Assembly (NCBI RefSeq): GCF_019112545.1
Contig: NW_025064889.1
Location: 656,098 to 720,097 of the forward strand
DNA: 64,000 nucleotides
Reading direction: 5' to 3'
DNA from: Guyanagaster necrorhizus
Lineage: Eukaryota > Basidiomycota > Agaricomycetes > Agaricales > Physalacriaceae
The notes below the pieces were generated by a model. The model was not told the DNA's origin. It ran no database searches and saw only the letters and a program-made list of their open reading frames with translations. Below, piece by piece: positions 1 through 62,492 of this stretch. Position 1 is the stretch's first letter, and each line of letters opens with the position of its first letter. The translations under genes and the position numbers were made by a program.

Positions 1-2779
1 AAAGGCTCTAAAATAGTTGGATAAACTCTGAGGGCTAAAAAAGTTTATCTAATGACAGAAGATCCAGAGATGAGATCTCATGACAAAAGCATAAGTTCAA
101 ACCCTCATCAATCAGGCAGACTTTATGGTCACTGCCCTGATCGACAGTGGTTGCACAGAGAGTTCTATTAATCAGACTTTCATTGACAAGCATCATCTTC
201 TGATCAAGACCACTGCCACTCTCATCCTGGTCTATAATACTGATAGCATCAAGAACCAAGCTAGATCAATCATTGAATATGTAGAACTTCAATTGATAAT
301 CAGAGACTATTTGAAGTAAATCAATCTGGCAGTCACTGAACTCAGCATAAAAGAACTATTCCTCAGACATGACTGGCTAATTCAGCACAACCCACTCATT
401 AATTGGAAGACTGGATGAATTATCTTCATCTGATATTGCTGCTGAAAAACACTATTTACACTTCTCAATGCCAATCTGGAAGACAAGTGGGATGAGAAGA
501 TAGAAAATGAAGAAACTATCCTTGCAGTGGACTTCAAAGAAGTCCTGAAAGTATGGGCAGTTCATCATGCTAATGACCTTGCAGCCAAAGTGTATAAAGG
601 AAAGAAGGAAAAGACATTTGAGGAGATGGTCTCAGAATGAGTGCAGGACTATCACAACCTTTTCACCAAAGAAAGTTTTGATGAACTACCCATCTCTAAA
701 CTGTGGGACCATGCAATCAAACTGATGCTGAACACTAATGCCAACCTGGACTGCAAGACATACCTGCTAAAACACTTCAAGCAGCAGGAACTCAACAAGT
801 TCCTAGATGAGAATCTCACCAATGGAAGGATTAGACCATCAAAATCCCCAATGGTGTCACTGTTCTTCTTCATCAAAAAGAAGGATGGCAAACTCTGACT
901 GGTGCAGGACTATCAACAGCTCAATAAAATGACCATCAAAAACTGTTACTCTTTACCTCTTATCTCAAAACTGATGAATAAGCTTCATAGAGCCAAGTTC
1001 TATACTAAATTAGATGTTCAGTGGGGATACAACAATGTGCAGATCAAAGAAGGGGATAAATTGAAGACCACTTTCAGAAAGAACCAAGGGCTATTCAAAC
1101 TGACAGTCATATTCTTTGGGCTAACCAATTCTCCTGCCACTTTCCAGTGAATGATGAATGACATCTTCAAAGATCTCATTGCCACTGAAAAGATAATGAT
1201 CTATCTCAATGACATTCTGATAATGTCACAAGACAGAGAAAAGCACTGATGACTCATATATCAGATACTCAAGCTGATAAGAAAGAATAAGCTTTTTCTT
1301 AAAGCCAAAAAGTGTAAGTTTGAGATATTAGAGATAGAATACTTAGGAGTCATCATTAGCAAGAAGAGCATCTGAATGGATCTGATCAAAGTAGCTGAAA
1401 TTACAGAATGGCCAGAACTGACCAAGAAGAAGGAATTCCAATCATTCCTTGGCTTCACTAACTTCTACTGTCAGTTCATATGGGACTATAGCAAAATCAT
1501 CCAGCCAATGACCCAACTCACCAGAAATGCCCTCTGAACCTGGAGACTATCACAGCAATTGGCATTTGATGAGCTCAAATGACAACTGGCAGAGGATGTA
1601 ATTCTAGCAATTTCCAGCTAGGACAAGAGGTTCAAAGTCAAAGCAGACTCTAGCAAAGGAGCCATAGGAGTGGTATTGTCCCAAGAACAGGATAGCAAAT
1701 AGAGACCAGTCACATTTCTTTTCAAAGCACTAACAACAACAGAAGGAAATTATAAAATCTATGACAAAGAACTTCTAACTATCATGCTCACCTTAGCAGA
1801 ATGATAACATTATCTCATGAGAGCAACCAAAACTTCAAAGTGTGGACTGATCATCAAAACCTCCAATATTTCCAACTCTCTCAGAAGCTTAACTGGCAAT
1901 AAGCATAATGGGTGATAGAATTATCTGAATACCATTACACTCTTTATCACAAAGCAGATTCAGCAAACAAGAAGGCCAATCTGCTTAGCTGAAGAGCCAA
2001 CTATGACCAAAGGGGGAAAGACAACAAGGAAGTAGTGCTTCTTAAACTAGAGCACTTTTGAGCTATGATAATGCTGATAGAAGAAGAAATACATGACAAG
2101 ATCTGCAGTGCTATATAGCAACCCAATCTGTGGGATCAAGAAATTGCAACTTCCTTGAACTATAAACATGGCATATTCTGGTCTAATAACCTTCTCTTCT
2201 ATGATGGCTGACTCTATATTTCTCAAGACTGAGCACTACAAGGGGAAATCATAGTGATGAGCCATGACCATACCATAGTAGGACACTCAGAGATTGCCAA
2301 AACAAGAAAGTTGATACTAAGAGAGTATTGGTGGCTGAAGATGATGAAGGATATTGAGAGGTATGTCAAGGGATACAAAGTGTGCCAAAGAACCAAGGCC
2401 ACAACCAGGTGACATGCCTCATCATTACATCTGAACAAAATCTCAATACAACTATGGATTCATATTTTGGTCAACATAATCATGGGGTTGCCAGACTGTA
2501 ATGGCTATGACACCATTATCATCATAGTCAACCAATTCTCTAAAGTGATCATCCTAATTGCATATTCAACAGAACTGTCCTCAGAAGGATAGGCAAAAAT
2601 ACTCTATGATGAGATCTATACTAAATATAGTATACCTCAAGTCATCATTTCAGACTGAGGACTACAATTCATCTTCAAATTCATTGATGACTTGTATCAA
2701 CTGCTCAACATTCACTGCAATGCATCTACAGTCTACCACTCATAGACTGATGAAGAGGATTTGTGCACACACAATGTGA
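1..2779 (+). pseudogene. Element A: decayed Ty3/gypsy pol (PR, RT, RNase H, integrase N-terminal part)
   Basis: This is the 5'-truncated pol of a gypsy element; its gag and 5' LTR lie left of the window. Translating + gives an aspartic protease with ALIDSGCTESS (from about 131). RT follows from about 641 (KKDGKL-stop-LVQDY near 880-912, YTKLDV, FFGLTNSPATFQ), then RNase H (about 1640-1990) and the zinc-binding and core part of integrase (about 2160-2775, with HDHTIVGHSE and the ISD motif). Many TGA stops sit where relatives have Arg (CGA), for example in KKDGKL(R)LVQDY. The RT active site reads YLND instead of YLDD (about 1200-1215). It is non-functional. The reading frame is cut near 2775 by another insertion and resumes near 4525. 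Confidence 0.9.
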
Positions 2780-4515
2780 AAACAGATACAGCAGAGTGTT
2801 ATCCACTGACCACACTCACACCAATACACACACACAAAACTCTTAGTTCATGAGGGGATTATAATGCAATGAAAGTAGCAATCAACAAATATAATTGTCC
2901 TCTTCAATGAGATCACAGTGTGTGAACAGTAATAGTGCACTTACAACAGTCTGAGGTCTCTCTAAGCCTCAAAGCTTTTCATTTTATCAGAACAAGAGGT
3001 GGCAACTGGTGTTGCTGGGCCTCAAGGCAAAGGGTACTGCAGCTCAATACAATATATCAAAACACTCTCACAAAACTCTCCAAAAAGTCCTAAGCACAGC
3101 TCAGATCAACTCAAAATCCTTAACACACACAATACATGACTCAAGGCTTTGTGCTCTAAGCAAAAACCAATCACAAACACATCCACAAGTGCCAAAGAGC
3201 ACAGATCTCTGTTCACAAGCTTCCAAACCAATCATAGACCCACAGGATTCAAATCTATGCAATCCAGAGACACAAAACACAATAAAACATTGTCTGACAG
3301 ACCAAAAGGTTTGAACCTCTGCCACCTGTAGCACCATGCATCACAAATACCTCAAAAACTCAAGATGATACCCTTCAGACACCACTCTCTTATTCTCAGG
3401 TTAGAGCACAATCTAAAACCTCTTATCAAACTGAGCTTAAGTCCTTCATGAGCTTCAATGCCTCACTTAATTCTCACAGCTCTCTCAAAGATATTCAATA
3501 ATACATTTATTCTCTTACCCAAAGTTACTAACACAAACCCAGAGCTTAGAGTGCAAGGCTTTCTGTGCCCAATACACTGCAACTGTAGAGGTCGGAAACT
3601 TGTCCTCTACTCATACAATACCATATTTAAATACTCTACTATGATACTTACTAATACAATCCTACTATGGTATCCTCAAAGTGCAAGACTCTGTGCCAGA
3701 TCCTGCAGGTATTATTCACATGCATATCACAGTCACCACACTTATTCTCTTCTGGACAAGGACTGTGCCCACTGTTTCTTCACTAGCTGACATCAGCTAG
3801 CTGGCCTCACTAGGTCTGCTCACTTTCTTATTTCTCCAGTGACATCTCTAACAGCAGTAAACTGTTTCAGACCCCTGGAGTTATCTCTCATGCTAGGAGT
3901 CAGCCACAATGGCTATGTTCTACTTTCCTATGTCCAGCCAGTCATTTTATCTGACTCACCAAAGGTGCTATTTCTCAGTATGATGCAGAGTCCCTCACTG
4001 TGTTATGCATGCTAAGGCACTGTAAGTATGTGCATAAGGCTCAGAGCAGTATATGCATTATTCATTTCTGAGGTAATATTCCTCTACTTATTACTTTGTT
4101 GTCATCATTCTATTTCTCTATTCAATACCCATTTACTCAGATATCTTTCTTTGAGCCTCAGTTCTCTGTTCTAAAGCATGTCCCATCAGTGCATCAATGG
4201 CTGTGCATCTTTGATCAATATGATCAGAATTGCTGATCATATTTCGATCATAGTCTTTTTATTTTTAGCATATCCTCTCATAATAGTATTGGTGCATTCA
4301 GGGCCAAGTGCTGAGATGTCACATGCAGCCTAACCCCTCTGGTATTAGTCTGTTACTAGGCCATGCACTCTGCTTATTGTTACTTCAGTTTAGCATTATG
4401 ATAGCTAGGTTTCTGTGTGCTCTAGTCCTATTTTCTGTTATATGCTTACTGGACTGGAATGCAGTCCATGTATTCGCAATTTTTGCAATTTTACATGCCT
4501 GAACATAGAGAGAGC
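2776..4515. mobile_element. Unclassified CpG-poor insertion within element A integrase
   Basis: The integrase of element A stops after a VYHS(Q)TD-like motif near 2770 and resumes near 4525 with the next conserved block (INQEIEKYL-like). About 1.74 kb of unrelated sequence has therefore been inserted. It has no recognisable coding domain, very few CpG, and only short random reading frames. It could be a solo LTR or a non-autonomous element. The ends are approximate, and no clean target-site duplication is visible, which suggests an old event. Confidence 0.6.
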
Positions 4516-5320
4516 ATGTCACCAATAACTAAATGGAGTGCATCAATCAAGAGATTGAAAAATATCTTCAAATATTCATCAATTACTGACAAGACAATTG
4601 GACAGAGTGGCTAGCACTTGCAGTCTTTCAACATAACAACTGAGTCCATTCTGCCACTGGTAAAACACTATTCTTCATAAACTATAAATGACACCCAAAC
4701 ATATCAAAAACCACATAAATTCATATGACCACTTCTGCTTCCACAGACTTCACTGCCAGTATGGCAAAAATTCACATTGAAATAGAGACTGCCTTCCAAA
4801 AGGCCACCAACACAATGAAATCCTAATATAATATACATAAACTCTCCACACACTCATACCATGTAAACAACAAAGTTTGGCTGGATATCACAAACCTACA
4901 TCTACTATGCCCTAAACAAAAACTCAACAATAAATGTACAGGCTTCTTCACAATTACAGCAAAGATCAGAGCTTCTGCATATAAACTCTGACTCCCACAA
5001 TATTAGTGAATCTATAATGTGTTCAATAAAGCCCTGCTGACTCCATTCATTGCTCCTGTGTTCCTAAATCAAGAATGACCACCACTACCATCACCACCAG
5101 ATCTGATTGATGATAATGAACATTATGAAGTCAATCAGATACTAAATCACAAGACCCAATGAGTCAAAGCTCAAGGCAGAGGCATGAAAACAACTGTTGA
5201 CTATCTAGTCAGCTGAAAGGGATACAGGCCAGAATCAAACCAATGAGTAAATGAATGACACATGAATGCTAATGATACAATCTATGACTACAAACTATCA
5301 CTAAATTGACCACAATAATG
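4516..5320 (+). pseudogene. Element A: integrase C-terminal part and chromodomain (decayed)
   Basis: This continues the integrase broken near 2775: EIEKYLQIFINY, then EWLALAVFQHNN, then SASTDFTA and KVWLDI. It ends with DYLVS-stop-KGYRPESNQ (about 5190-5250), which aligns with the chromodomain of element C (YLVSWKGYRPESNQW). The chromodomain places A among the chromoviruses, a clade of Ty3/gypsy elements whose integrase tail reads histone marks. It has several internal stops. Confidence 0.85.
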
Positions 5321-5415
5321 GTCAATGTCTTTATAAATCTATAAAGAAGAAAGGCAGGTTATCTGCATCTGGAATCTCTAAACTTATCCTTAATTTAAGC
5401 TATCAGGACAATAGT

Positions 5416-5431: not shown

Positions 5432-5907
5432 TGTTATAATTTTTTCACTTTTTCCTTCATTTCTTGGATATTAACCTCTATTTATGCTTAGTCAGGGCAC
5501 TTAGGCCAGCACTTAGAACTATGGGACTACACTAGGACCATGCAAATGTTTTGATCAGTATAGCCCTTTATGATCTGAAACACAACACTGCTTCAATGCA
5601 AGACAATTAGCCTATTGTAGATAACCATGGCACTTAAGAACAATGAGTATTATAGCACAGACACTTACAATTAGCAGTACTATATTTATCAGAAAGACAA
5701 ATGGTATATAAGTAGCATAGTTAATGCCATATATCCCTAGTCTCAAACTATTCTTTATTTTACCACTTTACCTCGAGTCAACTACTTGTATTGATCTTGG
5801 AACATAACATCTACAAACACATCAAATAGACTTAAGCATGATTGTACAAACATGATACAGTACTTATTTATCACATGTTATAGAGCATATGTCACTCAGA
5901 CCTAACA
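5432..5907 (+). repeat. 3' LTR of element A
   Basis: This 476-bp LTR starts TGTTATAA and ends CCTAACA. It contains a TATA box (TATATAAG, 5705-5712) and, 34 nt later, AGTCTCAAACTA (5739-5750), the presumed transcript start. It forms an inverted pair with the LTR at 5992-6450. The five bases after it (GTTGT) should be the target-site duplication; the left copy lies outside the window. Confidence 0.85.
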
Positions 5908-5991
5908 GTTGTAATGATATTGATGGCAGACATTTGGTTTCCTTCACTCATGATAGGCATAAGGAAAGGGAAATAGAAGTCTCAAACTAAT
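5908..5991 (-). mobile_element. Element E: PBS and start of leader
   Basis: Read on the minus strand this is the 84 bp that follow the 5' LTR of element E. It starts with the primer-binding site (5978-5990, minus TTAGTTTGAGACT), then a pyrimidine-rich leader resembling those of elements B and C. It breaks off exactly where the 3' LTR of element A begins. The simplest reading is that A inserted into the leader of E, leaving the rest of E left of the window. Confidence 0.75.
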
Positions 5992-6450
5992 TGTTAGAGC
6001 CAAATGACATATGTCCAATATCACATGGTAAATAGACACTGTATCACATTCATACAATTATGCCTAAGTTCAAATATATGATGTGTGTGGATGTTATATC
6101 TCAAGGTCTATGTAAGTAGACTTGAGTAAATGGATATGATAAAGAATAGTTCAAGACTAGGGATACATGACACTGTCTACACTACTTATATACCTCTAGG
6201 TCTGTTGCTAAATATACTACTACTAATCATGAGTGTCTGTGCTATAGTACTTGTTGTCTTAGTAAGTTGATGTTATTTACAAGAGGTCTGTTGTACTATT
6301 GTCAGGGCATTGCTACAAGTTGAGAGACAATGGCTGATTGCACTGACCAAGCCTGTCCCATGGTTCTAAGCACTGATATAGATGCTTTGACTAAGCATAA
6401 ATAGGGGTTAATACTGTGAAAATGAGAATAAAAGTGGAAAAATTGTAACA
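5992..6450 (-). repeat. 5' LTR of element E (inverted relative to A)
   Basis: This 459-bp LTR reads TGTTAGAG...TTGTAACA on + and is the reverse complement of the same LTR family as 5432-5907. Its presumed transcript-start motif is at 6147-6158 (+ TAGTTCAAGACT). Most differences from the LTR of A are C/T or G/A transitions. The five flanking bases at 6451-6455 (GCCTG) would be the target-site copy. Confidence 0.8.
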
Positions 6451-6496: not shown

Positions 6497-7368
6497 TGTC
6501 ATGATTTTTATCTTTAATCATGGCCCACTGATGCTTAATAAGCTGACACTTATAAATCTCTGACCAAACCCAACTATGAGTCAATCTAGACCATGGAGAA
6601 ATCTTGTGATAATCAGATAGAGCTATAGATGATGAGACTATGACAATACAATAACTATGCTTTACTCATTGATACACAATAGACACTCAGAAACAGCATG
6701 TCAACAGTCACTATCTCATGTCTTCTTCATAATAGTGTTGGTCATTGAACAAAGTAAATAAGGCACTGAGAACATTCATTGTTCTTACTGCCTATTGTTT
6801 TAGATTATTGTATCTTTTTAGAGCAGTGGCAATTAGTGCCACTGAGACTGATCTAGTATATAAGTAGAGTACTTTTCATACAGATGCCTCAGTCCATTAT
6901 GCTATGACATACAAAAGACTGAGTTTATCTACAGACTGGATTCTAAAAAATAGGTACTATGACACTTGATAAACTCACTATAGCAATGGCCTAACAGAAC
7001 AACAATGATGCCTGAAAGCAAGAGTGCAGTCATTGTCACTCAAACAATGAGTAGGAGATATGGAAACCAGACAATAGTTGCTTGTAGAATGAAGAGCTCT
7101 CTAGACAGTATTTAAGACAGTAGCATACACTGATATACCTCAGTTTTGAGCTAAGGTTTAATACATCTACTAAACTCTCTAATCATCTGGTGTGACTATT
7201 TCTGCCAACTTGACAGATATACTCTATCAGCCATCTGAACTCATCCCTTTTATCATCATCATCTATTTCATCATTCTCATCATTCTTCAGTATCAACAAC
7301 AGCACTCAGAAGCAGACCTTGATGGAAGTGGTGCCAGACATTTGTGATTGTTTGGTAGTAGCATAACA
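6497..7368 (+). repeat. 3' LTR of element F (D family), with nested insertion
   Basis: It starts TGTCATGATTTTT and ends GCATAACA. It aligns with the D LTR at 39956-40584 (inverted) over its length, apart from a 213-bp insertion. TATTTAAG (7109-7116) is followed 33 nt later by AGTTTTGAGCTAA (7142-7154), the presumed start motif. It is nearly free of CpG. Confidence 0.8.
6736..6948 (+). repeat. 213-bp solo LTR nested in the LTR of F, TSD AATAG
   Basis: The D-family LTR lacks this stretch. It is flanked by perfect 5-bp direct repeats AATAG (6731-6735 and 6949-6953) and starts TGTTGG. Its end is TCTAAAA, probably a mutated CTAACA. It has its own TATATAAG (6857-6864), with AGTCCATTATG 34 nt later (6891). 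It is best read as a solo LTR of a small gypsy family. Confidence 0.75.
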
Positions 7369-9355: not shown

Positions 9356-11435
9356 TTACTTGGTTCCCCTCATCCGCTTCTTCTGATCCAAGACAGCCTT
9401 TCTCAGACGTATCGCCTTGGGGGTAACTTCTACAAGTTCATCATCAGCCATATATGCAATACTCTCCTCAAGGGACATGATTCTCGGACTCGCGATGACA
9501 AGCTTCTCATCCGCACCTGCCGCCCGGATGTTGGTGAGCTTCTTCTTCTCGCAAGGGTTCACGTATAAATCTGATGCCTTGGAACATTCGCCAATGACCA
9601 TACCGGGATAGACGTTGGTCGTTGGGTGAATGAACATGATTCCGCGAGCTTGCAGAGGCGCGATGGCGTAGGCAGAGGACTCGCCTAGGGACATGGAGAT
9701 GAGAGAGCCGTTGCGTCCTGTGTCAATGGAGCCCTTGTACGGCATGTAGCCTAGGAATATGTGGTTGAGAGTACTGTATTTAGATTCAGCAAAACGAACA
9801 ACAGAAACGATCCGGATCTTACCCTTCGCCATGGACATCGTTTTTAAATTCTCCGGCCATATAGCCAAGCAGACCACGAGCAGGTACCTCCATCTCAATC
9901 CTCATGAACCCTGGCTCTGCCGGCTCGTAGTTTTTCATCTCGCCTTTCCGCATTGTAAGCTTTTGGATGACCGTACCCGCCCACTCCTCCTTGACGATTA
10001 TAACGCAATCCTCGATAGGTTCCAGTTTCTGGCCGGGGTTATCCGGATCAGGAATCATAACAGCCTTGGGCGGGCCAATCGTAAACTCAAAGCCTTCACG
10101 ACGAAGCGTCTCAAAGAGGACACCAAGATGTAAAACGCCACGACCACGGAGTTCCAACGACTCAGCTGTCAAGCCGGGTAGAACGCGTAGTGCAACATTA
10201 GTCTCGGCCTCACGCAGCAGACGTTCACGAATAACCTGACTGGTCAATTTGCTGCCTTCCTTGCCAGCCACTGGACTGTCGTTGGGGTAGATACGGACGG
10301 AGATCGTCGGAGGGTCGATGGGAGTTGTCTTGAGAGGTTTAACGTCCTCTCCTGGGCTAACGAGACTGACATTGACGCCGCCGATGCCTGCCTGAATCTT
10401 TATACCAGCAATAGAGACGATCTCCCCTGCAGCGGCGACATCGCGCTCCACCCTCTCTAGACCAGCACGAGAGAATATCTTCTTGACTTTTCCTTCCCCG
10501 ACTTTGCTGCCTTCTGCATCGAGCGCCCAGAGTGTGTCGCCCACGCGTAGCTGACCTGACTGTATGCGCCCTAGATAGAGCATTCCAACATATGAGTCGC
10601 TTTCTATCTGAACGGTGAGCATGGAAAAGGGACCGTCAGAGGAGAGATGTGTTGGAGGCGGGACCTGGGAGAGGATCAAATCAAAGAGTGGTTCCATATT
10701 GCCGTTTGTCGGGGGCGGTGGGGGTTGATCAAAGGTAGCCCAGCCCTCCTTTGCAGAGGCATATAGGACGGGGTACTCCATCTGGTCGTCGGACGCGCCA
10801 AGGGTTGCAAAAAGGTCAAAGAGGTCGCTCTCCACCTGAGCGGGACGACTGGTGGGACGGTCAGCCTTGTTGAGTACTACCAGAGACCTAAACGAGTCAG
10901 CTAGAGCACCGAGAAGATGATGAAAAGACAGACTTGAGTCCCCTTGCTAATGCTTTGCCTAATACGAAACGAGTCTGTGTCATTGGTCCCTCTGTAGCAT
11001 CCACGACGAGCGCTACGCCATCGACCATACTGAGAACACGCTCGACTTCTCCTCCAAAATCTGCGTGACCAGGCGTATCTACAATGTTTATGAGATTATC
11101 GCGGTATTTGATGCTAGTACACTTGGACAGAATGGTGATGCCGCGTTCCTTTTCGAGATCGTTCGAGTCCATGACGCGATCCGTGGGTGGTTCATTGGTG
11201 CCTACAACGGCAGAGGGAGAAAGGGTACCGGACTGACGAAGGAGCTGGTCAACGAGCGTAGTCTTGCCATGGTCGACTGAAAAAAGGTCGCATATAGTTG
11301 GCGTAATAACTGGCAGCACGTACCATGGGCTATGATAGCAATATTCCGTATGTTTTCAGTGGCATAACAGCGCCGAAATGACAGAGAAAAAGGCCTTGCG
11401 ATTACAGGCAACCGCAGAAAGGCATTTCGAAGCAT
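9356..11435 (-). CDS. Mitochondrial TypA/BipA-family ribosome-associated GTPase (645 aa)
   Basis: Exons on minus: 11435-11324, 11276-10934, 10887-9823, 9773-9356. The introns are 46-49 nt and the sum is 646 codons. The N-terminus (MLRNAFLRL, then [12 protein letters not shown]) looks like a mitochondrial targeting peptide. GTPase motifs appear once spliced: G1 AHVDHGKTT (about residue 36-44), G2 RGITI, G3 [12 protein letters not shown]4 NKADRP and G5 YASAKEG. Translation-factor domains follow, ending with the BipA-type tail ([18 protein letters not shown], then [11 protein letters not shown]). BipA/TypA GTPases bind the ribosome and help its assembly or stress translation; here that would be the mitoribosome. 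The start is the first ATG in frame (an upstream TTG was rejected). Only 59 bp separate it from the ATG of the next, divergent gene. Confidence 0.92.
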
Positions 11436-18216: not shown

Positions 18217-21200
18217 TCACTGCTGCTGCATACGCTTCCACAGTTCGACAGTCTCGTCCAAGCTTCTCACACTCCATCCAGTCCCAAGTGAAGTAGCCAT
18301 CGCACTACCAGTCGCATGCAAGACCTCCTTGATTCCCTCGTCCAGCAATCTTGCATCAAGTGTGCCCTCCGGCCTCCCAAAGCACTGTGCGTACGCATCG
18401 CTTGCCAGCCCTTTCATGATTTGCATTACTGTCGACACAGGAACCATGTTCCTCAACAGATACCACGCGAGCCTCTCGGCATCCCCCTTCAATTTCAAGG
18501 ACACCTTGCCCCCCACTGAATATGCCGCAAACATTTCCAAGAATTGAGCATCCTTCCTGATGTCATCTAGCCGCTCATCCAGCGCATGCAGAGCCCCCAT
18601 CACAGTCGAATCCCTGATCAACGGTATCCTGGGGTTGTTCTCCGACCTCCCGCTGAACCTCCGGTCATAGATCCTGCTGTAAAAGTCAGCTGCGAACCGC
18701 AGGTCCTGCATCCGTAGATGGAAGTAAACGTCCCGTTCTTCCATCCGTCGATACACCCAAAGCATCAAATGTGACTGAAGTGACTGAGGTTTGCCCTGCA
18801 GAATGGAGTCATACAGTGCTGCATGACAATACGAAGTGAATAACGTCTCCTCGTCGGTGTCCCCGTCCCAGCCGTTGCCGAAATGATCAGCAAAAGACAG
18901 ATACACAGGGTCATTGGAAAACGAGTTGATAAATTCACTCAGATCGCTTGCAGGATGCGACTTGGTCGTTAGCTGCGGGAAGTCCAGGATTGCTGCTTCT
19001 CCGGCTGAGCTCCTAGACCGGACGAATAAGCTCCTGCTTCCCCTCGGATCTTCCGTATAGCTTAAAAATGCTGTACGTCGCTTCACGTACAATGTCTGAC
19101 TTCGCACCAGGCTCTCTCGATGCTGCCAAACGTGTTCTAGGTCCAGGTGGAATGGCCAGTATCTCGGTGTATCCACACGTATAGATATCACCTTGTCAAT
19201 TTCCGGAATGAGTGTAGGAGATATCAGCTGTGTCGTGCCCATCTCGGTCCCATCCCGGACAGTTATCTTCAGCGGCAGATAAACCACCTCTTTCGTCTCC
19301 ACATCTCGTGCAATTAAACACCTCGGCTCCGCTGCTAGCACCCATAAGTGTCTCAATGCTTGCAGATAGACTTTATTATCCGATGATACTTGATGGAACC
19401 GCGGATAAAATGCGATGATCATGCTCGCGATCGCAGCATCCGATGTGCCTAGAGTATACCTTCCTGCACCGAGGAAGAGTAGACCTATCGCCTGGTAAGT
19501 CGCAACGTGGATACCGTACTTGTGCGTCGGATGGTACATCGTTTGATTGAACATCCCATATGCGTAACGCAACCGCCGGAACGAGGTTATCTCCCCGGTG
19601 CCAGCCATGACCATACTCAGCGCGACCGATATCAAGTTTAGCCCGTCGCGCACGGCAGACCGCTTGATGCGGTGGTCAAAGTTGTGCCCTAGTCGCATGT
19701 TAACAAAGATCCACTCCTGTCAGAAGAACTCACCATTTTGATAAACCATCCGCGTAAAGAGGTCAAAATAGCGGATGATCAACTTATAAGCCTCCTGCCT
19801 CGCCGTCCCAGCATATTTGAGTCCCACTGCAAAGCAGCATCCAGCAATGACGTTGTAATACGCCAACTCCAGCGCATCATCAATGGCCGCTCCACTCTCG
19901 AACCGCAGCTTGATAGCTGCCCTGATCGTCTCCGGAATCTGGTTGGTGAGCCAGGTTGTTGTGGGTTCAATAGAGTCCCACAAGATCAACGACCTGGCCA
20001 ACACCCTCGTAAGTAAGAAACTCGGCTGGATCGAATTCAATGCAAGGATGGTATCAGGCATCGGCAGCATATCCACAATATCCTTTCGCCCTGTTCGCAA
20101 GTACATCAACCCAAGAGCCATGGTCGCAGCAGGGCACGTCAAGTTCAGATCGAACGATGGATGACTTCCGAGACCAATCGAATGCTGCTCGTCTCCTTGA
20201 ATGAGAAAATTCAGCCGCCGCACCATCTCGACGTCTGCCGGGATCATTTTACCCTTGCCTAGCATGATCAACCCAAAAGCCAGTGCAGCGGACGTCGTAT
20301 ACGTTTCCCGGTACTCGTTATGCAAATCGGGCTGGAAGAGGTCTTTGCGACTGATTTCTCGCAAACATACTTCAGCGTACCGCCGGTGTTTCGTCCCAAG
20401 ATACAGGAGCCCCATACCTATCAAACCAGCAGATTGTGTCATCAGAGTGATGTTCAAATCAACATCCGGCGTAGGGAGCAGAGCAGGCGTATGCACCGCA
20501 AGTAGCTTCGTCACTGAAGCATTTCCACTGCCGACATTTGCCGCAGCTAAACCTAACAACAAACCGATGGAGGTTATATCATGTTTAGGCGTTAGGTACT
20601 GAAAGGTATTCCAAGCGACTATTTCCTTGAGATGACCAGAAAGCCCCAGTCCGAATAGAAAGCCTGCGTGGCTAGGCGACAAGTCGTTTGGCTTGTTGAA
20701 TGCGATCCACGAACTCTCGACGCCTTTCGTTGCGGAAGATATGCGAAGACCGGCAGCGACACCATTATGGAATTCTCCCCAATGAATAGAATCCTGATGG
20801 AGCACTTTCACGTCCGGTAACACATGAACGTTGTGGGGGTGAATCCGAATAGTGTAATTGACGATAGGTATGGTATATGCCTGCCGCGAAACCTTCGACA
20901 CTGAACCAAACGTGAACATAGCACGACCGTAAGCCAATGCGTTTGTCCGTTCGGCTATCCGTAGTGCTTGATGCTGAAATTCCTTGATCTGATCCGCCTC
21001 ACTGTTGAAATGTGACCAGTCAACAGATATACCGAACGTTGGCATTGAAGACGTACCCTGTATCCGGCCGATCTACGAACGGCCGATAGGTTTGAATGTA
21101 CGCAGAGTTCAACAGCCGGGCCACGTCTTCCAGCCTTCTGTCCTGTCCAAATCGGATGTCTGTAAAGTCATCCAGGTCCAGTTTGACACCAGATACTGCT

Positions 21201-28084: not shown

Positions 28085-31000
28085 ATGGACAGCGACAACG
28101 AAGTCTACGAAAATGCACCAGAAACCAAGCGGTTCAAGGCAAGAAGACCAGACACCCTTTTTCTATCATTCTAACCAAGTTTCTTGTTTTCAGTACCAGT
28201 CGTACAGTAGGAGCCTCAAAGATGTCCATCTTCCTTCAGCTCTAGAACAATCAAAAAAGGACCACGACTTTGAAGCGCGTCTCTATTTATTTTGTCTAAA
28301 ACCTTTCGTTTAACAGTACGACCAGGACTCCGAGTCTCACTTCCGAGATGCTTTGTCCCACTGGAGACAACTGAACCTCTCTCCTTCCTTCATCGGTTTT
28401 GCGAATAAGGCGTCGTCGCTGTCTGCTTCCCTTCCGCTTCTCCTTCACAACTGGCGCGAGGTTGTCGGATTGTGGATTTCAGCTTTAAAGAGCTCCGATG
28501 ACGAGGGATTTAAAGCTCTTTTGGAGTGCGTGCTGCGACTTTCTACTCGTTTTTCGCGACTAAAACTTGTTTAGCCTTCTTCAAAAGATGATTATCGACC
28601 TTCGATCTACATTGTCACCTGCGTATACCGATATCCTAAGGGAGCTGCTCGCGCTTCTCCCTCGATCCATACCTGCGGAAGCTCTGACGAGTTTGCTGTC
28701 GACCTTCTCCCTCATCTTCAAGCATCTTCTTGTCTCATCAACAGACCCGAACTTACTCGAACAGACCTGGACAGTTATGCGTAATATTTTACCCAAATGT
28801 CTCCCAGAAATACAGAGGGCTATGGCTGAGGTGTTGGGTGCTCTTTTAAGGAGACTAAAAGTCCCATTACGGGAGAAAATAGCAGTACTTGTAGCCACCG
28901 ATGTTACAGGAATTGACGACGCGGTAGCGTGGCTATTTGTTTGCGCGTGCAAGGTGCGTTCTCATAGCTTGCAATGAATTGTTCACTTACCTCGGTCTTT
29001 CTAGTCTGTGTCACAAACCCTGCACACGGCTACCCAGTCCATCATAAAGCCATTATTAGCGTTCCACATGTCATGCGATATCGCTGAGCCTACGTATACA
29101 CTACTTCGTCGCATCCTGACAGCCCTGATACATCATGTCAAAAATAGCGAGAAATTCTCACCCATCGGCGATCTACTCGTCTCTACCTTCACAGATTTCA
29201 TGTCGGAGCAGAATGCAGATAATTCTGAAGGGCGTCAACGTGTCATTGAAATATTGTCTGTGTCGTGCTCAGTACGACAAGGATCTCGACATACAGGTAA
29301 GTTACCCTCCCCTACTTAAAGTCACCATCATCGTAACATCGCTCCAGAGAAACACCTGTCACAGCTATTGACAGCAGCAAATTCGATACCAATTACTGAG
29401 GCAGTCCGACCCTCTTTACTGAAGCTATCCGCAGCGGTGCTAACAGCTGGTGATATGGCCCTATCAATGGGACTCGGACGTCGATTCTTGGAGCATTGTT
29501 GGGACCATCCAGTGTTTGCTATAGAGCTGCATGGAGCACTTGCCGATCTTGGCTGGGGAGGATGGAAGATGATCGCGCTACCCACGTTGTTGAAGAAGAC
29601 GCCTCTTCTTTTGGAGAACGAGCCCGTTCGCACATTACAGCTTCTGGCTTCCGTGCACAAGGAGAAAAGGTTGGGTGAAATCGATCTGGTGTGGAAGCAA
29701 CGCGTCGAACAATGGGTGAAGAACAGACTCCAAAATTGGGTTATGTCTCGAGAATCAGTAAGTCTTCCAACTCTCAGTCTTCTTAAAGACTTCCTTTTCA
29801 TGGTTTCGTAGGCTTTAGAGCTGCAGTTTATCGTCATCCTTTCTGGATACTTATCTGCTGAGGTTACCCCTCTTATTATCAGTATTGTTGACTCCTTATG
29901 TAACGCCGATCCCGAGCCAGACACCCGAAGTGATAGCTTTCCGTCGCCGTCTTGGGTCCTTGGGCTATGCCTACCATATCTGTCAAAAAGACCACAAGAG
30001 GAACTGAGAGATCGTGTTCAAATGAAGGCGTGGACACAAAAGTGTGTGGCCAAGTGGTATTGGTCTCCTAGTGTCGTCAGTGGCCTCGTTTCCTTTACCA
30101 ACCAAAGGTAAAGTACAAAGTCTATTTAGTGGACTATTTCTCATGTGTTGTCTCACTATAGTGATGGGGATGCTGCCGACTTCGAAGAATTGTATCCTTT
30201 TCTGCGAAAATCGATTCTCTCGCACGACTTACAACTCCGCTTGAATGCGTTGCGTCTTCTTGCGTCTCCTGCAATCAAAGTTCCTGATACTGTCCTGGAG
30301 GTCGTCAAACGCTGCCTTCAAAGTGAAGAAGTGTCGTTGGACGTTCAGGGCCTCCGAGAACGCGTTTTACGTATGGGTAGAGTAGGGCAGATTGTGACAG
30401 ATGGAAATAGCGGACCAGACTTGTGCGTTCGGTGGCTAGTAGGTGTGTACCGACCAATATATTTTGGCATGAATTGCTGGCTGATATTTCTCCCTTCAGC
30501 TCAGTTAAAGGTTAACCTTCGGCCACTCTGGTCGCCGGCGGCCGGCGCAATAGCATCTCTAACTCAGCAATTTGGTGGCGATGTATGGAGTATTCTATTT
30601 AAAGAAGTTCAGGAAGTTTCTCAGCCAGACTATTGGGATAATATAAAGTCTTCAAAGGATGATGAACATGAGGGAGGTGACGATATATGGGAAGAGGAAC
30701 GGTCGTGGAGAGATCCTAGTGCTCATAAGTTCAGATTATCAGTGTATCAGTGGTCGAGCAGCTCTCTGATTCCTTCGAAATCATCACAAGTACGTGTCGG
30801 TATTTTATCAGCGTTTTCCATACTTATCTCTGCGAAGTCTTCGACAGTTCGTGAAAACTTAGATGTCCGTTCCTACGAGACACAGCTCGTGACAACATTA
30901 GGACAGTGCTCTTCGCTTGCTGAAAAGCACAACCACGATCTCATCTCGTACTTCTTGTCCATCATCGACGCCGACTCCAAGTCCAAGTTGCCACGACAGA

Positions 31001-34000
31001 AGCTCGCTCTCTGGCTAACTTTGTTCTCAAAATTCACTAATCCTAAAGCCCTCTATGCAACCGATAAACTCCGAGACCTCTATTTCTCCCTTCTGTCACA
31101 CCCCGATCGTTCCCTCCAAACTGTCGTGCTATCGTGCATTTTGAACTACAAATCGCGTTCACTTTCTTTGTATGAAGACAAGCTTCGACTCCTGTTGGAT
31201 GATACGCAGTGGCGCGATGAACTTACCTCGCTCAGTCTCGCCGAGATTGAACCTCATGACCGTCGCGAGGTTATAGACGTAGTTGTGAGGTTACTCTTTG
31301 GAATAATGCTCGAGAATAGGGGCCGATCGCGGGGTTATGACCGTCGGACTACAATTTTGGGAGTGCTAGATGGTTGCACTGAAGAGGAGCTAGGATTACT
31401 GGTAGATCTGATGGTGAAGCCATTCATCGCCGACAGGCATTCTCATCAAGGGGAGATGTTCACTGTCCATTCCGTGGGACAGGTGTTGGAGAAACAGCAG
31501 ATGGGATTTTTGACCCTTCTCGGCGACCTGTTGAAAATTTTGGGACCGCGGTTGATATCATATTGGCCTGCTTTGCTGGGCACTACGATCAATATCGTGA
31601 GCGGCGCTCAGACAAAGTTGTCCTGTTCCAATCAAGTAGCCGATAATTCCGACGATGAAGTCGATGATCAGGACGAGAAAGCTGTAGATGGTTTATCGGT
31701 GGTGAAGGCGACCCGGGCTATACGACAACTTGGAATCAAACGCTTTTCCGATTTCTTCCAATGTCCAATATCGTTCAACTTTGAACCATATCTGCACGCA
31801 TCATTTAATTCATTCATTTCACCGCGGATACCGTTACTTGACAAGGAAAATACCCAATCTCCTTCCGCTCTTCTGGATCTTTTCTTCATATGGTCCAAGT
31901 CTTTCGATCATGCAATGACCCTTGTTCGTCACGACACACAGCTCTTACCACAGATATACAACTGTCTCATAGCTACCAATGTGAAACCGGCGGTCACGTC
32001 CAGAATCCTCGATATTATTGAAAGGCTTCTGTCTCTCTCTACGGAAGAGCCGGCTATCCTTGAGTCGATCCTCAAGCCCCATCTGCCCCTTCTACTCACC
32101 AATATGTCAATACTGATTGAACGCAAGAAAGGCTCCGAAGACCCGCTGGCGGAAAGACAAATCACTGTTCTTTCTCAGCTTGCGCCCTACTCGACCAACG
32201 CTGAAGAAGCCAAAATGCTGCTCCATCTTTTTTCCCCCTCCCTTCGCAAATCATCCAGAGTGGTTCCTGAGAAAGTCAAGACTGACCTGCTCACTATTAT
32301 CAGCCATCTCATACCATTAGTCCCAGAACTAAAAGATAATTCCTCCACCGAATATTTCAAACTGTATGAGGCGCTGTCCCAAATGTTCCTGACTCTCCGA
32401 TCTCGGAATGCCCGAGTCAGACTTGTGGCCGCGTTTCAGAGTCTCGTAGCAGGCAGCAGGACCTTACAAAGTTTCATAGGTCTATTGCAGTCATTAAACT
32501 CTTACTCAACAAAACGTTTGGACGAACCTGATTTTGACCGTCGTCTCAAGGCATTCGCTGAGTTGAACGACAGTGTATTTACTACCTTGTCTTCTGGTGA
32601 TTGGGTTCCTTTCGTCTACCAGTCTCTCTACAGCATCCAGGATCCCGACGAGCTTGCTATACGCAATAGCGCAGCCCATTCTCTGCGGCATTTTATAGAT
32701 CAGGTAGCCACCCGCGCACCCGATTTTGTTGCCTCGTTTTCGCGAATCCTGTTTCCCGGCTTAAAACACAGTCTCAGGTCGAAGAACGAGTTAGTTCGGG
32801 CTGAGGTTTTGGGTGTGTTGGCGTACACCGTCACGACATGTGGCGATAATGCTGCTGTGCAGGATATGCGGATATTATTAGCAAGTGGTGACGAAGAAGC
32901 CAATTTTTTCAACAACATCCAACATGTCCAGATTCATCGAAGGTCTAGAGCTCTTCGACGCCTAGCCGACCAGTGCGATGAGCACCCCCCTCGCAACAGC
33001 ACACTCTCAGGCATTCTCATTCCATTAATTGCACACTACCTTGTGCCTACTTCACCTTCGAACCATCATCTGGTAAACGATGCTATTACGGCGGTTGGCC
33101 GACTGGCAAAGCACTTGGCGTGGGGTGCATACTATGCCCTCATTCAGTCCTATATGCGTCTCTCCAAAGCCAGAGATGAGTCTGAGAAGACCTACGTTCG
33201 CACCCTCGTTGCCCTTCTCGATAACTTCCATTTTTCGATGGACGAACAAGCGATGTCAGAAGGCATTGAGGACGATGAGGCCAGTGAAGAGGGGCCCCCC
33301 AATAGTTCGACACCTTTGAAAAATACCTCTCGAATCTCTGATGCCGTCAATAACCGCCTCCTTCCTGATCTCCTGAAATTCATTGAATCTCGCGACTCCA
33401 CTACAGAGGACATTACACGTATCCCAATCTCCATTGGTATCGCAAAGGTGGCTTTGCACCTTCCTCTCTCTCTGGGTGAGCCTCAGATAACTAGGCTTCT
33501 CACCGTGACTTGCCAGATCCTTCGCAGCAAGTCTCAGGAGACGCGTGATGCAACGCGTGATGCTCTCGCTCGCATATCAGTAACACTAGGACCCAAATAT
33601 CTTTCTCTGATAATCCAAGAGCTGCGTGGCGCACTTTTGAGAGGACCTCACTTGCACATCCTTTCCTATACGACACACGCGCTCCTCGTACATGTCACAT
33701 CACCAGAGCATGCGTCTGTCTTTCATACACTAGATGATTGTGTGAACGGCGTTGCCCATATCTCCGCTGAAGTCATATTTGGTGAATCGGGAAAGGATGT
33801 TCGCGCTGAGGACTTCAAGACAAAAATGCGAGAAGTGCGTGGGTCGTCGTCCAAAGGCCTGGATTCGTTTTCGATATTGGCCAAATACGTCACGCCGCCT
33901 TATATCAGCGGCCTCCTTTCCCCATTGCGCTCCATCATGAGAGAAACAGAATCGGCGAAGGTGATGCAGCTGGTCGATGAAGTTATCAAACGCATTACGA

Positions 34001-39955: not shown

Positions 39956-40584
39956 TGTTAGGCTTCCACTAACACTCACAAATCTCTAGCACCACTTCCA
40001 CCAGAGTCCAATTCTAGATGCTGAGTCTGAGTCTGATTTTGATATAAAGTATGATGAGGATGATGAGATAAGCTATAAGGATTTCACAGAGAGGGTTGAA
40101 GGGTTGTGGCTAGTAGATATAGTCTGCTATTGTGGCAAGAGTATTTGCACCAGATAGTCAGAGAGTGTAGTAGGTGTATTAAACCTTAGCTCAAGACTGA
40201 GATACATCAGTGTGTACTACTGTCTTATATACTGTCTGAAGAACTCTATGCCCTATAGATGACTATTGTCTGCTTTCCATGGCCTCTGCTCATTGTCTGG
40301 GATAACAATGACTATGCTCTTGCTTTTGTTTGTTATTGTTGCTCTGCTATACCATTGCTATGGTGAGTTTTCCATATGCCACAGTTTCTATTATGTTCCA
40401 GATGTGGGACAGTGATAGTTACCACATTGTTCCTTGTCATCTTATTGTGCATCAATGAATAAAGTGTAGCCATGGTGTCATCATGTTTTCATCATCTTTT
40501 GTAAGGTTGGCCTGAGGTTGGAATTGGTAAGCATCTGCTTACTAAGCATTGGCAGGTCATGATTTAGAGGCAAAAATCATGACA
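39956..40584 (-). repeat. 3' LTR of element D
   Basis: On + it starts TGTTAGGC and ends ATGACA (629 bp). The inverted copy in element F (6497-7368) fixes the ends. TATATAAG (minus, 40241-40234) is followed 33 nt later by AGTCTTGAGCTAA (minus, 40208-40196). The left five bases AGCAT (39951-39955) are the likely target duplication. Confidence 0.8.
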
Positions 40585-51645: not shown

Positions 51646-51658
51646 AGCTTTGAGCTAA
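51646..51658 (-). other. Primer-binding site of element B
   Basis: Minus TTAGCTCAAAGCT lies one base from the 5' LTR end. It is the reverse complement, but for one C/T change at a former CpG, of the motif 34 nt after the TATA box in the same LTR (51814-51826). This suggests self-priming rather than a tRNA primer. Confidence 0.7.
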
Positions 51659-51659
51659 T

Positions 51660-52119
51660 TGTTAAGCCCAAGCAACATGTGATCTAAAACATGTGATAAA
51701 CAGATGCTGTATTGTATTTGTACAGTCACATCTGAATTCACTATTTGTATTTGTGTGGTGTTATGCTTTAAGGCCTTGCAATTAGCTTGAGGTAGAATAG
51801 TGAAGTATAAACTTTAGCTTGAAGCTGAAGTTATACAGTGAGAGCCACTCTACTTATATACTAGCCATCTATCAAGGTATTAATGCTACTACTAATTGTA
51901 TCAGTCCAAGCCTTTCTGCTTTTGATCCTTGAGCATCACTATCAATGTCTATAAAAGAGTTGTTGTGCATCATCAAGGGATGTCATCATGTCAGAAAACA
52001 ATAGTGAATTCAGCCTGTTATACTGATTAAGCCTGTCTCACAGTTCTAAGTGCTGGCTTAAGTATTCTGACTAGGCATAAATAGGGGTAAAATATAAAAA
52101 AGATGAAAAAATCATAACA
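51660..52119 (-). repeat. 5' LTR of element B
   Basis: 460 bp, + reading TGTTAAGCCC...ATCATAACA. On minus, TATATAAG (near 51860) precedes AGCTTCAAGCTAA (51826-51814). It differs from the other LTR mostly by C/T and G/A transitions. Confidence 0.88.
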
Positions 52120-59511: not shown

Positions 59512-59524
59512 AGCTTCAAGCTAA
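59512..59524 (-). other. Primer-binding site of element C
   Basis: Minus TTAGCTTGAAGCT lies one base after the 5' LTR end. It is the exact reverse complement of the sense-strand motif AGCTTCAAGCTAA in the same LTR (59692-59680), which lies 34 nt after the TATA-like TATTTAAG. No tRNA-like TGG start is present. Confidence 0.75.
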
Positions 59525-59525
59525 T

Positions 59526-60042
59526 TGTTAAGCCCAAATTCCATGTGACTAGTGACATGTGATAAACTGACAGAACCTCACACTTCAGGTTATACTGTCA
59601 GAGTCCACTTGTGTGTGACTAGTGTTGTGTAGTCAAGGCATTTGCAGTTCACTTGAGATAAGATGGTGAAGATAAAACTTTAGCTTGAAGCTGGGGTATT
59701 ACAGCAAGAGCTATGCTACTTAAATACTGTTCTGTTATCGTGCTATAAATAAATGTTCACAAAAGATATTGTCTGTTGTAGAGCTGTTACCCCTGCTATT
59801 GCCAGGCTCTCCACAAAGGCTGTTGTCTGGTGAGCTGTTGTCATTGCTATTACTGCTGTTTAGTGACAAAAGGAGTATTGTCTCTCCCTTCACAGCGCAC
59901 AGCTGTACGATAAGACAATGACTGACTGGGTTGCTGAGCTAAGCGTTCCCATGGTCCTAAGCACTGGCCTAAGCACCCTGACTAAGCAGAGATAGGGGTC
60001 ATTTCTGAAGGAAAAGAAAAGAAAATAGGAAAAATCATAACA
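59526..60042 (-). repeat. 5' LTR of element C
   Basis: 517 bp, starting TGTTAAGCCC and ending ATCATAACA on +. The presumed promoter is TATTTAAG on minus near 59726. It differs from 52243-52759 almost only by transitions, several of them TG in one copy and CA in the other. Confidence 0.93.
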
Positions 60043-61971
60043 CATAGTTTATAGTACTCTGATATGGACCCTCTATTATTGAGGGTTCTATCTGCATTAT
60101 ACACTGGAATAGGTCTAGGAATTTTTTGAGTATTGCACCTATTTTATCAGATAAAGTCATTATCTATGGAACTTTTCATGCACTGACAGTTTCATCCTCA
60201 CCTTTTCCTCTTTGTATGTACTTTTTCCCTTGTACTTCTTTTAGCACTCACAGTGCTTCATCTTCTTCTATACTTCAGAGTATATTAATCAGGTTCTGAT
60301 CAGCTTCAGCCTGCAGTTTCAGATATACTCATCCTTTCAGCATGGCTAAGGTAATTGAGTTTGAAGGTTCTTTTATAGCCTGTAGTATCCAGACAGCTGT
60401 GCCTGGCTTTCTCTATCCTGTTACTGTCTTTGGTTCAGAGTGCTTTTCTCTTAGATACTCCACTGTCTGCTCAGACTGGGACTTTCCTATAGAGGCTCTG
60501 CACTGAATGGCTAATTCTATCCTTGGTTCTAGTGGCAATATATGTGGTTTAGATTCTGCTTTCTCCTGTACTTTTTCTTCAGTTTTTGGCAGAATAATGA
60601 AATGCATCTTATAGGGTATCACTTGCCCAATTCAGCTCTCAAGAGTATTTGAGTCTTTTTACATACTTTTTTTCTTTTTGAGCAGTGAATATTTATTACC
60701 AGTTCCTACAGAGAATGTCTTAGTACTGGTAGGTATAATATCTGGTTTAGAATATACTATTTCAATATCATCTGCTTTAGTCAAGAAAATGTTGAAAACT
60801 CATCTATTGAGGGGTTACTTATTAAAATCCCTCTGGGATTTGGTTTCTCTCTTCTTTTGCTTCTTCTCCTCAATAGCTCAGTCCAGTTCCTCCTGGGCTT
60901 TTCATCTGGCCATTTCTTCTTGGTACATCTGACTTAGCTGCTTTTATTCTTTATTTGAGAATTTCATTTCCCAAATGTTGCATGAGATAAGAGGCTGACT
61001 GCTTGATGCAGTGTTTGAGGCAGATCTTTGAGGCTCATGACCAAGAGTGTTGACTTAATAATTGTAGTCCATCTGCAAAATCCTTCTTTTTCACTTGTTA
61101 TAAGTGGAGGAAAAATCATTGTCTCCATAGGCAATAGTGTTGCAGAGATTGGGTCAGACTGCATTCTCAATCTGCTTTAACATAACTTCATGATCACATA
61201 TCTTTCCAGCCTGATATGCTAACTCTTCAAATTCTTGAAAGAATTTCTTAGCATCAGTGAAGTTGACCTGTTGTAAGACCTACCACTTGGCTGCATGAAC
61301 CTTTTATTCTGCATCTAGCTTGAATTATCATTGTACAGCTTCTTTGAATCATGAGTAGGAGAGATACCTCCACTATATTGTAGTTGGATCATAAAAGTAC
61401 TGTTCTTGTAGGCTCCACCACTCTTGTGTAGCATCTTCAAATCAGGTTATACAGAATATTACTTGGTGAGGGCTGAACCTAGTGAAGCTCATAGAGAAGT
61501 AGGTGCTGTACATCTCAAAATATACCTTATATTGTTGGAAAAAGTGTTCAAGTCCAAGCTTTCTCCTTTGAATAGTACTAGCTCATAGGCTATAGTCAGC
61601 TTTAAATTTCCCCAGGGCTCTATAGTTTCAGGCTCTCATGGAGATGGAGTGTCAGATGGCAGTGGCAGTGGCATTGGTGGTAGGGCTGGCTTTTTGGGCC
61701 TAAGTAAGGACCATAGTCTCTGGTCATACCAAAGATGATCTGATGGGTCTTCAGAGGGCAGAGAAAATAGTACTGCCAGCTCTTTCCTTTTTTTCTTTTG
61801 CTAGAGAGTGCTGATAGAGCTGGAGGTCTGACATTCTTGGATCTTGCTCTAGCAAATAGACAGATGAGTGCAGCTGAGACTTACTGAGGAGTCTGCCAGA
61901 AAGGGTTTTAGCTTCTCCAACTGCTTAGGCTACTTTCTGCTGATAGTGGTTGTTTGGGCACTGTTACGCGC
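60043..61971 (-). pseudogene. Element D: start of protease and gag (decayed)
   Basis: The minus frame just right of C reads IPRPIPVYNADRTLNNRGSI, the protease part that joins 52242 once C is removed. Further right is gag: FFQQYKVYFEMYSTYF, then KKFFQEFEELAYQAG (about 61250-61200) and a charged tail, a Retrotrans_gag-like region with many stops. The element is cut at 61971 by H; its 5' LTR lies beyond the window. Confidence 0.75.
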
Positions 61972-62453
61972 ATGCCGCTGGCCTCCGTGTCACCTCAACC
62001 AACCACGAATTCTATCACGCTACCCACCGGACTCCAGCCACTTCCCATTACCTACTAATTTCATTTCACCATTATCATTTCACATCTGTATTTCATATTG
62101 TAATACCTAGACTCCGAACTCGGTAGCGAATATTCACACCGGAACCCAATGGAACCCGACTCGGAATTAGCTACCATTAGTATATAAAGCCATGTATATC
62201 ACTGTAACTACTCAGTTCGAATATCAACTTGGATAAGCCATCTACACTTCATACTCACTCCTCCCTATCTCATCCGTTGGATTCCGCTCCGAAGGATACT
62301 CCTGTTCACTTCTCTGACAGAACTCTGTTCTGTCCATCCAGATCCTTGGGCCCCGACTCAAGGGTGACGTTGCCAATAGCTTCGTCAACGCCCACGCACT
62401 CCGCCGGACTCCATGCATGCACTCAAGCCCACTCGATTGGCACGTTCCTAACA
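61972..62453 (+). repeat. 5' LTR of element H (young, CpG-rich)
   Basis: 482 bp, starting TGTTACGC and ending CCTAACA. The base composition changes sharply at 61972 from CpG-free to CpG-rich. TATATAAAG (62181) is followed 33 nt later by AGTTCGAATAT (62214-62224). The left flank GGCAC (61967-61971) would be the target duplication. Confidence 0.85.
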
Positions 62454-62455
62454 GT

Positions 62456-62466
62456 ATATTCAAACT
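62456..62466 (+). other. Primer-binding site of element H
   Basis: ATATTCAAACT starts two bases after the LTR end. It is the reverse complement of the LTR motif AGTTCGAATAT except for one base (A opposite C, a CpG-derived change). This is the third sequence version of the self-priming pair in this window. Confidence 0.6.
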
Positions 62467-62492
62467 CAAACCCTTGAGTCGAAAATTTTATC

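Follow-up and report, generated by a model that had tools for sequence, protein, structure and literature searches.

Covariation of putative self-primer motifs and primer-binding sites among Ty3/gypsy-like retrotransposons of Guyanagaster necrorhizus

Introduction

Self-priming of retrotransposons in the manner of Tf1 has been in print since 1995. According to the available parts of the literature, the element for which it has been demonstrated is Tf1, and the other cases were deduced from their sequences. In Tf1 and Tf2 of Schizosaccharomyces pombe, which are Ty3/gypsy elements carrying a chromodomain, the first 11 bases of the RNA are complementary to the primer-binding site (PBS), as described in the accessible parts of the reports (PMC7175516, PMC10085805). 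In Tj1 of S. japonicus and Tosmo/Tcry of other fission yeasts, the PBS is described as the complement of the RNA's 5' end, and this was read from the sequence, as in the present study. The Tcn1 clade (Cryptococcus neoformans, mosses and club-mosses), which is partly basidiomycete like the elements studied here, consists of chromoviruses proposed to self-prime; for SM-Tcn1, the available part of the report states that its authors found no evidence of self-priming.

We analyzed a stretch of 64,000 nucleotides of the basidiomycete Guyanagaster necrorhizus (contig NW_025064889.1, positions 656,098 to 720,097), which we call the window, and followed the elements found there through the genome. We think that these elements, which appear to be Ty3/gypsy elements with a chromodomain in at least one of them (element C), very probably use their own RNA to prime reverse transcription, like Tf1; this view rests on their sequences and on analogy. 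As far as the available accounts go, they share with Tf1 and Tf2 the complementarity between RNA tip and PBS, the chromodomain and the Ty3/gypsy type, and would share self-priming, here predicted, with the Tf1/sushi elements. They differ from Tf1 and Tf2 in that several versions of the pairing exist in one genome, two of which alone account for 1192 matched places, and in that the start and the cleavage of the RNA are here predicted. Tj1 and Tosmo/Tcry differ in having other hosts and a few families, and the available parts of their descriptions contain no within-genome covariation test. The mechanism is already known, and the scale and the set of versions add further members to a known kind. 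Covariation tests of self-priming are named in none of the titles and abstract openings that we searched, a scope beyond which lie Levin 1995, Lin and Levin 1997, Butler 2001, and Goodwin and Poulter 2001, and we do not claim novelty for such a test.

Identity of the elements

Element C contains RVT_1 pieces and, behind the integrase, a chromodomain (PF00385, 28.9 bits against a cut-off of 25.1); its integrase piece is weak (rve 20.3, under the cut-off of 32.6). Element H encodes a Ty3-type gag (Retrotrans_gag, Ty3_capsid). Inside element H the supplied genome is masked with N (L010, 3099-8244). A locus elsewhere in the genome, L026, which was chosen by its reverse transcriptase (RT) and not by its PBS, possesses protease, RVT_1, RNase H, H2C2 and rve, ordered in one frame. 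The order RT, RNase H, integrase, together with Gag and protease, which characterizes Ty3/gypsy chromoviruses, is thus found in L026 and in the pieces of C and H.

The best solved relative is Ty3 Gag-Pol. Among the best 120 of 7903 matches, the nearest named proteins were chromovirus pol proteins of Armillaria ostoyae, with at most 78% identity from RT to integrase; this is a likeness at the protein level, and proteins alone were compared. A chromodomain is precomputed for many relatives among these best 120 of 7903 matches, and two of them, P0030 and P0094, are named after Tf2 by their sources, which we regard as a lead only. Because of these RT, integrase, chromodomain and gag findings, together with Ty3 Gag-Pol and the Armillaria ostoyae relatives, the elements are most likely chromoviruses of a basidiomycete.

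Predicted self-primer motifs and PBSs in the window

The initial annotation had named an LTR motif and a PBS of the A/E family as a pair. Their letters, coordinates and strands were right, but the two do not belong to one element: they come from two insertions, A and E. The 3' LTR of element A occupies 5432..5907 on the plus strand (476 nt). A TATA box is located at 5705..5712 (+), and the putative self-primer motif AGTCTCAAACTA at 5739..5750 (+), at TATA+34. The 5' LTR of element E, which belongs to A's family (69.5% identity to A's LTR), occupies 5992..6450 on the minus strand, its ends being read off the sequence. Its motif, AGTCTTGAACTA, lies at 6147..6158 (-), again at TATA+34, and its PBS, TAGTTTGAGACT, at 5978..5989 (-), 2 nt past the final CA of the LTR. 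The minus-strand span 5990-5978 reads T followed by TAGTTTGAGACT.

The plus-strand element A is inserted in the leader of the minus-strand element E. The target duplication GTTGT flanks element A on both sides, at 5908-5912 and ahead of its 5' LTR (locus L009), and to the left of that LTR we found a minus-orientation piece of E's leader (C10:651978-652100). A's two LTRs share 87.8% identity. In the 5' LTR, which lies outside the window (L009), the motif is AGTCTTGAACTA, and A's own PBS directly behind it, likewise outside the window, is TTAGTTTGAGACT, which reads as E's PBS. E's own motif differs from E's PBS at two letters, and the pair named in the annotation matched exactly because two CpG decays happened to agree. 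Nevertheless, the statement about motif and PBS of the A/E family holds at the level of the family.

Elements B and C carry another version. The motif AGCTTCAAGCTA of element B is at 51815..51826 (-), and its PBS, TAGCTCAAAGCT, at 51646..51657 (-), shows two CpG-type departures from it. The 5' LTR of element C is located at 59526..60042 (-) and is 93.6% identical to the 3' LTR at 52243-52759. Its motif, AGCTTCAAGCTA at 59681..59692 (-), lies at TATA+34, and its PBS, TAGCTTGAAGCT at 59512..59523 (-), is the perfect complement of this motif; the copy of the motif in the 3' LTR (52398-52409) retains CG and reads AGCTTCGAGCTA. Compared with A/E, the version of C differs at positions 3, 4 and 9 in the motif and in the PBS alike, exactly as the three joint changes had been claimed.

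Element H was said to present a third version. The letters given for it are right, but in the window copy motif and PBS disagree at one place, a mismatch of the CpG type. Its 5' LTR lies at 61962..62453 (+), the motif AGTTCGAATAT at 62214..62224 (+), at TATA+33, and the PBS ATATTCAAACT at 62456..62466 (+). CG was present on both sides in 12 of the 21 H copies read.

Genome-wide matching of motif and PBS

The exact motif gave 225 genome matches, against 22 for the reversed pattern. The junction of LTR end and PBS, YTAACAATTAG-N7-CTT, gave 1130 matches against 0 for its reverse. We then counted motif and PBS together, using the unmutated versions at a motif-PBS spacing of 140-170 nt and halving the matched counts because matched patterns are strand-symmetric. 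The A/E motif with the A/E PBS occurred at 147 places and the B/C motif with the B/C PBS at 1045, whereas the cross pairs of A/E and B/C were found at a single place against these 1192, with 0 in the reversed controls. This place, C6:813004-813195, has a B/C motif ahead of an A/E PBS and was returned by both cross searches; it may have arisen by recombination, or it may stand midway in a change from one version to another.

In another approach we started from the PBS. Sixty sites were fetched from the 100 listed of the 1130 junction matches, namely 15 rare PBS types, 5 early examples and 40 in list order, passing over places already included. The motif was located by a TATA box followed by AG at +31 to +37, taking the site nearest +34 when there were several, and such a site was present in 52 of the 60. 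Barring interchange of CG, CA, TG and TA, 48 of these 52 matched over 12 nt, 24 of the 52 exactly. Among the remaining four, L113, L115 and L126 had one further mismatch each, and in L142 the TATA rule had picked the wrong AG, the real motif lying elsewhere with one mismatch. The eight loci without a site comprised three with a motif minus a recognizable TATA box, three with no motif within the stretch retrieved and two that were masked. The rare PBS types led to exact rare motifs in L110 (AGTGTTAAGCTA), L112 (AGCATTAAGCTA), L111 (AGCTTTAGACTA), and L118 and L119 (AGTCTTGAGCTA). The rare PBS of L109 and L114 (AGCCT-AGCTA) predicted the motif except at the CpG site, and in L113 and L115 the prediction of the motif from the rare PBS failed.

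Adding the A/E loci (22 of 30 holding a PBS), the H loci (22, one of them a duplicate) and the B/C loci (8 of 10), we obtained 103 distinct pairs. By version these were 30 A/E, 44 B/C and 21 H, with 3, 2, 2 and 1 for the other four versions; six odd motifs were assigned to the version of their group. There are thus seven motif versions with matching PBSs, one of them from a single copy. Over 11 nt, 48 pairs were exact and 85 were free of mismatches when CG/CA/TG interchange was set aside; a mismatch beyond this interchange was seen in 18, one of which (L142) was the mis-pick of the TATA rule. The mean mismatch was 0.28 for own pairs and 2.99 when the PBSs were redealt, and none of 5000 shuffles was as low. 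When each version was compared with every other, own pairs had the lowest mean for six of the seven versions, and for the remaining one (the AGCCT version, 2 copies) there was a tie. In 99 of the 103 pairs the own site was better than any other 11-mer of its stretch, and in 4 it tied with the best of them. Chance matching was ruled out by the reversed patterns, the shuffled pairings and this comparison with the best other 11-mer. These results indicate that the motif-PBS pairing is real and far beyond chance. Motif and PBS do differ together between families, being complementary and having the place and the length that a self-primer would be expected to have.

Position and borders of the pairing

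The distance from TATA box to motif was 33-35 nt in 52 of 52 sampled loci having a TATA box and AG at +31 to +37. In the window, the spacing of 33-34 nt that had been claimed for all LTRs was confirmed as 33 or 34 in the seven LTRs checked, B's box lying outside this check.

The Watson-Crick pairing at each position was as follows (n=102). It was 0.00 at -1 and 1.00 at +1, remained at 0.95-1.00 at positions 2-5 and 8-11, and was 0.61 and 0.68 at the central CpG site (0.82 and 0.90 when G-U was allowed). Beyond position 11 it was 0.78 at 12, 0.51 at 13, 0.08 at 14 and 0.01 at 15. That is, the pairing starts sharply at base +1 and is 11-13 nt long, and the PBS lies 2 nt after the final CA of the LTR. 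Such inner borders are what a primer cleaved off the RNA's 5' end should show. Further out the borders are not entirely clean: pairing rose again at positions 17-19 (1.00, 0.79, 0.90) and was 0.86 at -8 (n=51), which we take as putative shared letters of related LTRs.

The mechanism may be considered as follows. Transcription would start at the A of the motif, as the TATA+33-35 spacing and the sharp start of the complementarity suggest, so that the PBS by the 5' LTR would be complementary to the 5' end of the RNA as in Tf1/sushi elements. The first 11-12 nt of the RNA, whose complementarity to the PBS 2 nt past the 5' LTR was observed, would then fold back on it. By analogy with Tf1, the RNase H of the element would cut behind nt 11-12, and the short RNA would prime minus-strand DNA. 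The motif would have drifted into at least seven versions with the PBS following it, and after insertion motif and PBS decay independently, mainly at the central CpG.

TGG is the complement of the CCA end of a tRNA. A PBS starting with TGG is described, in the part of the source available, as the signature of tRNA priming (PMC5006619). The elements might be tRNA-primed and have a PBS that resembles the LTR by chance or descent. We found no support for this reading among the copies, and it is improbable in the extreme: the PBSs read start with TAG (TAA in L067) or ATAT, none with TGG, and the match starts exactly at the predicted start of the RNA. tRNA priming was therefore rejected.

RNA folding

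We scanned the RNAs for helices, keeping those in which the columns pair in 75% or more of the copies. In A/E (22 copies) the primer-PBS helix was the longest conserved helix, with 12 bp. In B/C (43 copies) a 7-bp piece of the primer helix passed the strict scan; the helix was shortened to this because the CpG site is under the scan threshold. Unconstrained consensus folds contained the primer helix in A/E (22 copies) and in B/C (35 copies), and in H the unconstrained consensus fold preferred another structure to it.

That the stem lies within the stable consensus fold of A/E and B/C would also suit an inverted pair serving as a structural RNA stem, for packaging or translation control, and not as a primer. 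We regard this as very improbable, since the 3' arm lies 2 nt after the CA of the LTR, the 5' arm lies at the predicted RNA end, and the length of 11-13 nt completes the geometry of a primer.

In H (21 copies) an 11-bp primer helix was found beside a second duplex of 12 bp (0.98 paired), which crosses the primer helix. The 5' arm of this possible duplex, CGACTCAAGGGT, is located inside the LTR at 62354..62365 (+), and the 3' arm, ACCCTTGAGTCG, just behind the PBS at 62470..62481 (+). No clear second duplex was seen in A/E, and the B/C scan extended to 2 nt past the PBS. The accessible part of the description of Tf1 (PMC10085805) gives two further duplexes for its 'pretzel'; one of them has a clear candidate counterpart here, in H only, crossing the primer helix as the Tf1 duplex would.

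CpG decay after insertion

The CpG observed/expected value was 0.00-0.18 in the LTRs of A, E, B and C and 1.04 in the LTR of H. It was 0.95 in the gene region, 0.02 in window 1-5400 and 0.26 in the interior of C. The strong loss of CpG in old repeats may be due to methylation followed by mutation, or to a process resembling RIP. The central CG of the motif has changed to TG or CA, separately in motif and PBS. Where both sides had decayed (CA or TG on both sides, TA states being left out), the two were alike in 9 and unlike in 8 copies of the A/E version (25 standard-motif copies), and alike in 13 and unlike in 14 of the B/C version (43 standard-motif copies).

It had been stated that the pairing is kept, but this does not extend to the copies of one family, in which the central CpG changes independently on both sides. 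This independent decay means that inserted copies are not repaired, and covariation tests must set the CpG site aside. The initial annotation had also proposed to give up its reading if most copies showed a motif change without the matching PBS change. Taken literally, 55 of the 103 copies differ over 11 nt, but CpG decay explains most of these differences. In CpG-decayed fungal repeats, mismatched copies are thus no argument against pairing, and matched decay is none for it. Outside CpG, the motif and PBS of the H copies (n=21) showed 0 departures in 378, compared with 60 in 5018 in the surrounding stretch; at the rate of the latter, about 4.5 would be expected in motif and PBS.

Change of versions between lineages

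The shuffle ignores relatedness, and we therefore also used a tree of the spacer, the stretch from motif to PBS with both excluded (94 rows, 91 of them different, some copies appearing twice). On this tree the motif version changed at least 11 times and the PBS version 10 times. The versions agreed in all 83 rows assignable on both sides; 11 rows were unassignable on one or both sides. The support of the tree is weak, 9 of 88 inner branches being starred. An independent-pairs sign test gave 2 pairs on starred branches and 5 on all branches, with p 0.5, and is too small to decide.

Of the single loci compared with element C of the window, which has the B/C version, L008 gave the clearest case. 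L008, which has the A/E version, is close to C throughout (U3 88%, spacer 91% and leader 85% identical), but it departs from C at three positions of the motif and at the same three of the PBS. L005 likewise differs from C at the same three sites of motif and PBS, with 83-90% in U3, 89% in the spacer and 86% in the leader. A spacer swap by intermolecular priming was rejected as the sole cause, since U3 and leader accompany the spacer in both comparisons. L003, also of the A/E version, shows 88-92% in U3 and 91% in the spacer, and its leader is at 74%. Because this leader does not accompany the spacer, we kept recombination as a rival. That is, the versions may be old and recombination may reshuffle LTR pieces between families, so that the joint switching would be only apparent on the spacer tree. 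The weak inner branches agree with this, and so does the finding of these two versions on several different LTR backgrounds, which would be less likely to result from repeated triple mutation. We nevertheless consider it unlikely, because a swapped spacer alone does not make L008 and L005 resemble C in U3, spacer and leader together while motif and PBS differ.

The covariation itself stood, with 147 and 1045 matched places against 1 cross place, but it does not by itself prove selection, of which it had been called strong evidence. If every cycle recopies the PBS from the primer, the PBS follows the motif automatically, and covariation is for this reason no proof of compensating selection. Plus-strand synthesis would copy the primer, so that the new PBS would be the complement of the parent's motif and the motif would be the master. 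We give this explanation of the covariation not quite an even chance. It accords with mixed versions being so rare (1192 matched places, 1 cross place). Judging by its title, Atwood-Moore 2006 reports that the self-primer of Tf1 is retained, which would also suit this explanation. Furthermore, the versions can be ordered by sequence in single steps (AGCTT-AGCTA, AGCCT-AGCTA, AGTCT-AGCTA, AGTCT-AACTA) with matched copies of each. However, this order comes from sequence alone, and because the AGTCT-AGCTA copies sit in a distant LTR group it is no demonstrated path. Selection for priming would likewise purge mismatched copies before they spread. Since the near-absence of mixed versions fits both, selection of the pairing itself is one of two readings. 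Selection against mismatched copies and recopying of the PBS are not exclusive, and use of the pairing is common to both; recopying competes with selection, not with self-priming.

We suggest, tentatively and with some doubt, that in self-primed elements the primer-PBS pair has a single master copy, the 5' tip of the RNA, each cycle rewriting the PBS so that single mutations of the tip reach the PBS at once. If this were true, private primer-PBS versions would arise stepwise without a valley of mismatched forms, which the single-step order allows, and families would be kept from priming each other. The 1192 matched places for two versions and the seven versions in all form a natural covariation test of the pairing and its borders, and the genome offers a place to ask whether a PBS evolves by selection or by plain recopying from the primer.

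Other LTRs and genes of the window

The claim on TATA spacing had included the solo LTR at 6736-6948. Its motif-like AGTCCATTATGC, at 6891..6902 (+), does lie at TATA+34, but in this LTR, being without a PBS, position alone could be checked and not pairing. The short LTR family to which it belongs occupies 5 places genome-wide, the window copy included, and by eye no PBS was seen behind the LTR in the 4 other copies. In L092, L093 and L095 of this family, an inverted copy of the motif start (AGTCT...AGACT) was seen by eye within about 35 nt behind the motif, and therefore R may fold on itself.

The LTR at 7041-7233 carries AGTTTTGAGCTA, near the F5 version, at 7142..7153 (+), and the LTR around 40107-40299 carries AGTCTTGAGCTA, the F5 version, at 40187..40198 (-), both at TATA+33. 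Between gypsy LTRs, at 37800-40100, remains resembling Ty1/copia were seen by eye. Rfam at the gathering threshold gave no match within the window. The region 9819-34200 contains ordinary genes, among them an elongation-factor-like GTPase (9819-10943, -), APC1 (18217-19716, -) and UTP20 (30130-34200, +).
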